A DNA stretch of 64,000 nt from Bacteroidetes bacterium HLUCCA01 (GTDB lineage: Bacteria; Bacteroidota; Rhodothermia; Balneolales; HLUCCA01): assembly GCA_001314545.1 (NCBI GenBank), contig LIHN01000019.1, positions 256,150-320,149 of the forward strand, given 5' to 3'. Position numbers and translations under genes: made by a program. This document shows positions 37,450 through 40,661 of the stretch, one piece after another. How positions within the stretch are numbered: position 1 is the first letter of the stretch; each line of letters opens with the position of its first letter. The notes beneath the pieces were generated by a model. That model searched no databases and was not told the origin of the DNA. It worked only from the letters and a program-made list of their open reading frames with translations.

Positions 37450-37476
37450 CAGTTTCCGGTTTTATGCGTAGTTTGG

Positions 37477-37510
37477 AAATCCGGCTGCTCTGTCAGGGCA
37501 GCCGGATTTT
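37477..37510 (+). terminator. Intrinsic terminator after the STAS gene
   Basis: AAATCCGGCTGC and GCAGCCGGATTT form a perfect 12-pair stem with a 9-base loop and four T at the end. Confidence 0.8.
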
Positions 37511-37561
37511 CTATGTTTATGACCCTCGAATTTCTCAGATTCTATTAACCAATTGAAGTGA

Positions 37562-38845
<1,284 letters not shown>

Positions 38846-38856
38846 TTTCACCATTC

Positions 38857-39984
38857 ATGGCTAACGAGCGTTTTACCATTACCTATCGCATTAGCCTGTA
38901 TCACGACGAGGATATCAACTCAAAAATTGAAAGTATTTGTCGGGAACAGAGTGTGGAACTGCCGCGGTCGGTACTGAACCCGTACATCGAGCAAACCATT
39001 GTCGGGTCACTGACCCGTCTGGACCGTAATCCGGATGCCAGCTACTTCGCGCAGATTGCGTATCCGTTGGGTAATGTAGGACTAGAAATTGCACAATTTC
39101 TGAATATTCTTTTCGGCAACATTTCCCTCATCCCCGGAATTCAGGTTAAAGCTGTAGACTGGAGTGCCCTGCCCTCAGGCCTGCTGCCCGGTCCACGTTT
39201 CGGCATTGACGGAGTCCGCAAGCTCATGGGGGTTGAACATCGCGCCCTGAGCAGCACCGCCCTGAAACCCATGGGATCTACGGCCAGTGAACTGGCTGCT
39301 ATGGCTTACGAATTTGCCGCCGGTGGCATCGACCTGATAAAAGATGACCATGGACTCACCAATCAGGTTTACGCTCCGTTTGAGCAACGACTGGAAGCCG
39401 TGAGTGCATCTGTCAATAAGGCTAACGCACAAACCGGCAACACCTCCTGGTACATCCCTCACATTACCGCCGACGGCGATGAGCTTTTCCGCAGGTATGA
39501 GCTGGCCCGGGAATACGGCGTGGGCGCTGTTATGATATGCCCACAGCTATGCAGTCCCGGAGCATTAAGTGAACTGGCATCCCGTGAAAACGGTCTTCCC
39601 ATCATGGTACACCCTTCGTTTTCCGGCACCTTTGTACTGGATAACCGCCACGGATTTGACAAGGCTTTCCTGTATGGCGGATTATGGCGTGCAATGGGCG
39701 CAGATATGACCATTTTCCCCAACCATGCGGGCCGCTTTAGTTTCACCCTGAAAGAATGTCTTGACATCGTGCATACCGCACGGGATACTTCCCTGCCATA
39801 CAAGCCCATCTTCCCCACTCCGGGCGGTGGTTTGCAGCGAAAAAGCATCCCGTATTGGATCGAAAAATACGGCAGGGACAGCATATTTCTGATTGGTGGC
39901 AGCCTCTATCAGCATCCCGAAGGGATACGGGCTGCGGCCATTGAAATCAGGTCTTTGCTGGAAGAGGCGGTATATGAAGACTAA
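38857..39984 (+). CDS. RuBisCO-like protein (form IV)
   Basis: 375 residues of the RuBisCO large-subunit fold. The catalytic Lys region reads ALKPMGST (Lys137, with Met139 where form I has a second Lys). The carbamate/metal motif is KDDH at residues 162-165 instead of KDDE, so the Glu ligand is replaced by His. Other family blocks are PGPRFGIDGVR, IMVHPSFSG and PTPGGGLQRK. These changes rule out carboxylase activity. It overlaps the cupin gene by 11 bases and follows purA by 11. In R. rubrum a RuBisCO-like protein and a cupin convert 5-methylthioribulose 1-phosphate towards deoxyxylulose 5-phosphate; that is the leading hypothesis here, others being enolase or acid-sugar isomerase roles. Confidence 0.88.
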   Translation: MANERFTITYRISLYHDEDINSKIESICREQSVELPRSVLNPYIEQTIVGSLTRLDRNPDASYFAQIAYPLGNVGLEIAQFLNILFGNISLIPGIQVKAVDWSALPSGLLPGPRFGIDGVRKLMGVEHRALSSTALKPMGSTASELAAMAYEFAAGGIDLIKDDHGLTNQVYAPFEQRLEAVSASVNKANAQTGNTSWYIPHITADGDELFRRYELAREYGVGAVMICPQLCSPGALSELASRENGLPIMVHPSFSGTFVLDNRHGFDKAFLYGGLWRAMGADMTIFPNHAGRFSFTLKECLDIVHTARDTSLPYKPIFPTPGGGLQRKSIPYWIEKYGRDSIFLIGGSLYQHPEGIRAAAIEIRSLLEEAVYED

Positions 39985-40435
39985 CTCCCGCGTTATCAAA
40001 AGCTCCGGGTACACTTGGCAGGGTGTTACCCGTAAGGATTACAAAACCGACACCACCAATTTCAAAGATATTTGCCGGTTCTCCCTGTTGGGTGAAGGTC
40101 CTGACGACCATGAACTTAACATGCAGACCCGCTATTTTGAAATCCAGCCCGGCGGATATTCCAGTCTTGAGTTTCACCGGCACCCGCATTCGGTCGTTAT
40201 CATCCGGGGGATGGGATCGGTTATCCTGAACGATTCCGTGACCGATGTTGCCGCCCATGATGTAATTTACATCGCTCCGGAGACCGTTCATCAGTTTCAT
40301 GCCGATAAGGGCGACCACCTGGGGTTCATCTGCGTGGTAGACCGATATCGCGATAAGCCCGTAATTCCCGATAGCCAGACCATTGAGCGACTGGTTGGTA
40401 CGCACGGTACAGCCCGCACCAAGATCAGGCTTTAA
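39974..40435 (+). CDS. Cupin-domain protein coupled to the RuBisCO-like gene
   Basis: ATG 39974 lies inside the end of the RuBisCO-like gene and gives 153 residues. It is a single cupin: motif 1 GGYSSLEFHRHPHSVVIIRG (His-rich metal site), motif 2 DVIYIAPETVHQFHA. The overlap implies coupled translation. By comparison with the R. rubrum pathway it could be the 1-methylthioxylulose 5-phosphate sulfo-lyase that releases methanethiol. A simple sugar isomerase or sensor role is possible. Confidence 0.8.
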   Translation: MKTNSRVIKSSGYTWQGVTRKDYKTDTTNFKDICRFSLLGEGPDDHELNMQTRYFEIQPGGYSSLEFHRHPHSVVIIRGMGSVILNDSVTDVAAHDVIYIAPETVHQFHADKGDHLGFICVVDRYRDKPVIPDSQTIERLVGTHGTARTKIRL

Positions 40436-40628: not shown

Positions 40629-40661
40629 TAAAAAAGGCTGACCGGATTGCTCCGGTCAGCC
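40629..40661 (-). terminator. Intrinsic terminator of the acyl-CoA synthetase gene
   Basis: GGCTGACCGGA and TCCGGTCAGCC pair perfectly over a 4-base loop, with a run of six T on the minus strand, 29 bases after the stop at 40691. Confidence 0.88.

Follow-up and report, generated by a model that had tools for sequence, protein, structure and literature searches.

What is the role of a RuBisCO-like protein (RLP) whose gene overlaps that of a cupin directly downstream of purA in Bacteroidetes bacterium HLUCCA01? The window analyzed here, a stretch of 64,000 nucleotides, contains the three genes in a row on the plus strand, all within positions 37568–40435 according to the ORF calls (Table 1). 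The initial annotation likened the locus to the methylthio-sugar shunt of Rhodospirillum rubrum. We propose that the RLP and the cupin very probably represent the distinguishing steps of the methylthioadenosine (MTA)-isoprenoid shunt, which would yield methanethiol and an isoprenoid precursor from SAM-derived MTA.

The RLP gene starts 11 bases after the end of purA (38845). The 11-base overlap between RLP and cupin straight after purA, as first described, was recovered with both frames and coordinates. The gene calls are not due to chance, since the RLP has a PDB match with E=1e-64 and the cupin profile matches Rru_A2000 with E=1e-43. However, the description of the pair as fused was wrong: the reading frames differ in the overlap, and thus the RLP and the cupin are two separate proteins, which are probably translationally coupled. 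Terminator-like hairpins are located before purA and after the cupin gene, suggesting from the sequence that the three genes probably form one transcription unit. No riboswitch was found in the window with Rfam. Among 30 RLP loci sampled from Balneolales (L087–L116), purA lies directly 5' of the RLP gene in 25. Overlaps of about 4–11 nt between RLP and cupin genes are seen in many of the sampled RLP loci of the order, and the identical 11-base overlap is found in L006, L007 and L010.

Table 1. Coordinates of the features discussed in the text (window positions unless a locus is named).
Feature	Position	Strand	Remarks
Terminator-like hairpin 5' of purA	37475..37511	+	17-pair stem; consensus scan only; likely start boundary
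purA, adenylosuccinate synthase	37568..38845	+	TIGR00184, 557 bits (cut-off 396); gene 1 of probable three-gene unit
RLP gene, 375 aa	38857..39984	+	ATG to TAA; DeepYkr clade; predicted 5-methylthioribulose-1-phosphate 1,3-isomerase
KDDH active-site motif, K162-D163-D164-H165	39340..39351	+	His replaces RuBisCO Glu204
RLP end/cupin start overlap	39974..39984	+	11 bases, different frames
Cupin gene, 153 aa	39974..40435	+	ATG at 39974; predicted 1-methylthioxylulose-5-phosphate methylsulfurylase
Cupin metal-site histidines H68-x-H70-x-H72 (with H106)	40175..40189	+	invariant in aligned family including 3jzv
Cupin Cys120, candidate catalytic thiol	40331..40333	+	conserved in aligned family
Terminator-like hairpin of convergent gene	40636..40661	-	11-pair stem, tail TTTTTT; consensus scan only; downstream boundary
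RLP-cupin loci in a single frame	L050:1647-3248, L053:7986-9605, L059:7974-9587, L065:7986-9605		
Sister-clade loci with split transketolase before cupin-less RLP	L045:2544-9107, L061, L066, L067, L078, L043, L013, L019 and others		

The RLP matches the RuBisCO large-chain family (PF00016, 93.5 bits versus a cut-off of 30.1) and has the corresponding fold; family searches found no second RuBisCO-family gene in the home genome. Both its best sequence match in the PDB and the closest fold to its AlphaFold2 model (pLDDT 94; TM 0.88/0.94) are 3qfw, annotated as 'Rubisco-like protein from Rhodopseudomonas palustris', and the identity to the R. palustris RLP is 36%. We take 3qfw as R. palustris RLP1 by elimination, because this organism has two RLPs and 2qyg is rlp2. 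RLP1 is a 5-methylthioribulose-1-phosphate (MTRu-1P) 1,3-isomerase, proven in vivo and in vitro (PMC5893883). In a phylogeny of 71 proteins, anchored by R. palustris 3qfw and built without the R. rubrum RLP sequence, the window RLP, 3qfw and the cupin-linked RLPs form one clade (UFBoot 95, SH-aLRT 87) that is separate from another RLP clade; MtnW falls outside both. The KDDH motif is identical in all 108 aligned rows of the two RLP clades and in 3qfw, whereas the alignment shows KDDE in MtnW and RuBisCO, with glutamate where the RLP clades have histidine. The initial annotation would have been refuted by placement in a clade with a different known function; the RLP instead groups with that of R. 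palustris in the DeepYkr clade, a position that does not refute the shunt reading. Its assignment as a DeepYkr-clade member and predicted MTRu-1P 1,3-isomerase is well supported.

The cupin is an ortholog of Rru_A2000, the 1-methylthioxylulose-5-phosphate (MTXu-5P) methylsulfurylase of R. rubrum (PMC4958253, PMC4334135). Searched against the PDB, a profile built from 21 cupins gave E=1e-43 or better for 3ibm, 3kgz and 3jzv, other cupins falling to 1e-15. The same three structures head the fold ranking, in the order 3kgz (R. palustris), 3jzv (R. rubrum, Rru_A2000, rank 2) and 3ibm (Halorhodospira halophila). Identity to Rru_A2000 is 38%. The cupin fold suggests that H68, H70, H72 and H106 bind a metal. 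Cys120, which may be catalytic, is conserved in 51 of the 52 rows of the alignment, including 3jzv, 3kgz and 3ibm, the remaining row being a gap.

Across Balneolales, the RLP is found in 73 of 129 genomes, the cupin in 70 and mtnA in 95. Sixty-nine genomes have both RLP and cupin, four have the RLP only, one the cupin only and 55 neither (p=2e-30). mtnA is present in 72 of the 73 genomes with the RLP versus 23 of the 56 without it (p=1.4e-14). Both p-values are inflated by kinship and overstate independence because the genomes are related; the co-occurrence pattern of RLP, cupin and mtnA spans several families. In a few relatives the RLP and cupin genes are 6–12 kb apart. In four Scalindua/Brocadiaceae (anammox) loci the two are a single protein of 533–539 aa (Table 1), so the RLP and cupin steps are independently linked. 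A 546-aa ORF in L076 was rejected as such a fusion since it lies in another frame.

Several variants were observed in the order. In G015 (L101, G015:C3:351793-352902) the cupin is encoded in the RLP frame beyond one TGA, so that a single stop codon separates the pair from a fusion, and the RLP match of G030 (L091, G030:C3:84837-85946) has an in-frame TAG inside. RLPs of family f5 (G110:C1:414130-415305, G116, G117, G119, G125, G126, G128) have longer frames of 397–436 aa, and in most of them the match is split in two near residue 261, suggesting an insertion. Finally, some genomes, a number of them incomplete, carry mtnA without RLP, cupin or a convincing acireductone dioxygenase (G009, G012, G014, G019–G023, G025, G027–G029, G031, G066, G068, G069, G072, G075, G103, G114, G120 and G122).

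The remainder of the pathway was sought by family searches in the home genome, which is 98% complete. The initial annotation had named mtnA and an MTA phosphorylase or nucleosidase as the genes to look for. Of these, mtnA is present at 95.5–96.5 kb of contig C3 of G000 (TIGR00512, 458 bits versus a cut-off of 279). Genes for Dxs (811 bits, cut-off 466), O-acetylhomoserine sulfhydrylase (L135; TIGR01326, 688 bits, cut-off 495) and the bacillithiol enzyme BshC (438 bits, cut-off 266) were also found. MtnD, which serves as acireductone dioxygenase in the usual salvage route, was not found in the home genome, and convincing examples are essentially absent across the order, where the matches are short and weak and probably correspond to other cupins. 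No canonical MTA-cleaving enzyme was found in the home genome either: the best match to the MTA phosphorylase model TIGR01694 is 74.5 bits versus a cut-off of 274.85, and the three members of the PNP/MTAP/MTAN superfamily are two PNPs and an AMP nucleosidase, with no MTA nucleosidase in the superfamily search. None of the 129 genomes has an MTA phosphorylase over the curated cut-off, and MTA is therefore presumably cleaved by a different enzyme. Third PNP-like genes of some relatives (L121, L123, L124) score best to MTA phosphorylase, but at 105 bits or less versus a cut-off of 275, and were not accepted.

Sequence features point to two candidates for this entry step, a PNP with MTAP-like residues (L003) and a YfiH/LACC1-type protein (L086). 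At the positions of Asn243 and His257 in 6-oxopurine PNPs (human PNP numbering), MTA phosphorylases carry Asp and a hydrophobic residue, respectively. The L003 PNP (L003:1483-2316, minus strand) has Asp and Met at these positions. The same Asp-plus-hydrophobic signature is found in all 20 relatives sampled (L142–L161), including 10 without mtnA; it is thus independent of the presence of mtnA, and the L003 PNP is only a candidate. Such PNPs may be adenosine or MTA phosphorylases annotated as 6-oxopurine PNPs. L086 is of the YfiH type and carries the NCBIfam name peptidoglycan-editing factor; the DUF152 enzymes YlmD and YfiH have been shown in vitro to produce adenine from MTA (PMC6978800). The suggestion that purA salvages the purine found no support, since cleavage of MTA gives adenine and PurA acts on IMP. 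PurA would be relevant to the purine of MTA only if adenine were deaminated first.

Other functions for the RLP have to be weighed against the MTRu-1P isomerase. MtnW, the 2,3-diketo-5-methylthiopentyl-1-phosphate enolase of the Bacillus-type salvage pathway, shares the RuBisCO fold and acts after MtnA in methylthio-sugar salvage, and the best NCBIfam models for the window RLP are of the MtnW type. However, the scores of 180 and 148 bits are far under the respective cut-offs of 409 and 514, the motif has histidine in place of the glutamate of KDDE, MtnW branches outside the whole RLP clade and the home genome yielded no MtnD. On cut-offs, motif and clade we reject this assignment, giving it next to no credence. 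Form IV RLPs are functionally diverse, and the enzyme might act on an unrelated sugar or sugar acid phosphate, as do OiaX-type and four-carbon-acid RLPs, with the cupin being an unrelated sugar isomerase. A match to the OiaX model does exist but is weak (106 bits, cut-off 700), and the clade, the orthology of the partner cupin with Rru_A2000 and the near-obligate co-occurrence with mtnA make this very unlikely. It is also unlikely that the true substrate is 5-deoxyribulose-1-phosphate from 5'-deoxyadenosine, a waste product of radical-SAM enzymes, which the RLP would convert directly to 1-deoxyxylulose-5-phosphate (DXP). Entry via MtnA would be possible and, in principle, 1,3-isomerization would give DXP. 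However, such a route would leave no role for the cupin, although 69 of the 73 genomes with the RLP have retained it and the two are fused elsewhere.

A further reading keeps the chemistry of the shunt, and is compatible with it, but sees its purpose in MTA detoxification and sulfur recovery, DXP being a by-product without a real isoprenoid role. We consider its chances somewhat better than even. It is in line with the presence of dxs, whereby DXP is made anyway, with that of O-acetylhomoserine sulfhydrylase and with the description of the R. palustris pathway as housekeeping MTA removal (PMC5893883). By contrast, MTA feeding of R. rubrum represses dxs, and there the shunt contributes to isoprenoids (PMC4334135). 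Any contribution to isoprenoid supply would be no more than a secondary gain, since the presence of dxs makes this branch dispensable, and sulfur recovery together with MTA removal is the likelier gain.

Under the MTA-isoprenoid shunt, the reactions in HLUCCA01, and the flux through them, would run as follows. A non-canonical entry enzyme would split MTA to give 5-methylthioribose-1-phosphate, which MtnA would convert to MTRu-1P and the RLP would isomerize to MTXu-5P. The metal-binding cupin, with a low-molecular-weight thiol, would then release DXP and a methanethiol-thiol disulfide. DXP would join that made by Dxs in the MEP pathway, and O-acetylhomoserine sulfhydrylase would return the sulfur of methanethiol to methionine. 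The thiol is glutathione in R. rubrum (PMC4334135), and a role of bacillithiol in other bacteria has been proposed (PMC6302742). In the home genome, bshC points to bacillithiol in place of glutathione as the probable thiol. What stands of the R. rubrum-type shunt is its RLP/cupin core, for which we observe the genes, their families and folds, the clade, the active-site residues, the co-occurrence with mtnA and, in other lineages, fusions of the two genes. Since there is no canonical MtnP, membership is claimed for these two enzymes and not for an identical whole pathway.

The sister RLP clade has a different gene neighborhood. It includes Chromatiaceae, Anaerolineales, Lachnospiraceae and others, with 54 loci. 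Like the home RLP, its members carry KDDH, and mtnA, sometimes with mtnK, lies in the same cluster; in some clusters a sugar ABC transporter is encoded along with MtnA and MtnK (343 bits, cut-off 275). A split transketolase has its two halves encoded upstream of the RLP gene in 31 of the 54 loci, usually immediately before it, versus none of 26 loci in the cupin-linked clade (Table 1). No RDKP-type cupin stands beside the RLP in the sister clade. Cupins at L016 and L042, in loci of the transketolase clade, were not counted as partners, being on the opposite strand or about 6.7 kb off and devoid of the RDKP motif. In this clade the split transketolase seems to offer another outlet for what would be the same product of the isomerase. 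A text search of the available papers found none joining RubisCO-like protein, transketolase and methylthioribose. The sister clade thus presents a possible undescribed fate of MTXu-5P, or of DXP from 5-deoxyribose.

Taking these observations together, we tentatively put forward a two-part scenario, which we hold to be less likely than not. The Balneolales variant would be entered without a known MTA phosphorylase, through an MTAP-like PNP or a YfiH/LACC1-type enzyme, and would discharge onto bacillithiol in place of glutathione; in addition, an ancestral MTRu-1P isomerase RLP would have two alternative partners, the cupin and a split transketolase providing an undescribed outlet for MTXu-5P.

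The pathway type is already known from purple bacteria. As in R. rubrum (RLP Rru_A1998, cupin Rru_A2000) and R. palustris (RPA2169/RPA2170), a DeepYkr RLP is followed by a methylsulfurylase-type cupin (PMC4958253, PMC5893883), and mtnA, O-acetylhomoserine sulfhydrylase and dxs are found elsewhere in the home genome. Unlike in these organisms, no recognizable MtnP is present in the home genome or the order, the pair is in a probable operon with purA, and a bacillithiol gene is present in the home genome. The two enzymes are only 36–38% identical to those of R. palustris and R. rubrum. A 2018 survey reported at least 25 shunt carriers, naming Proteobacteria, Firmicutes and Deinococcus, with a cupin identity limit of 45% (PMC5893883); Balneolota are not named among them, and the home cupin, at its identity to Rru_A2000, is under that limit. 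KEGG-based surveys already track the RLP and cupin enzymes (PMC10663253). A Bacteroidetes RLP with histidine for Glu204 was noted earlier, for the form IV RuBisCO of Bacteroidetes sp. HLUCCA01, where its resemblance to the RLPs of R. rubrum and R. palustris was pointed out (PMC5468372). This is an earlier notice in the same broad group, the relevant passages of which do not mention the cupin, the isomerase function or the distribution.

The present results extend the predicted MTA-isoprenoid shunt, which does not depend on oxygen, to 73 of the 129 Balneolales species, more than half of the order. Balneolales, which are largely salt-loving heterotrophs, are thus likely biological sources of methanethiol.
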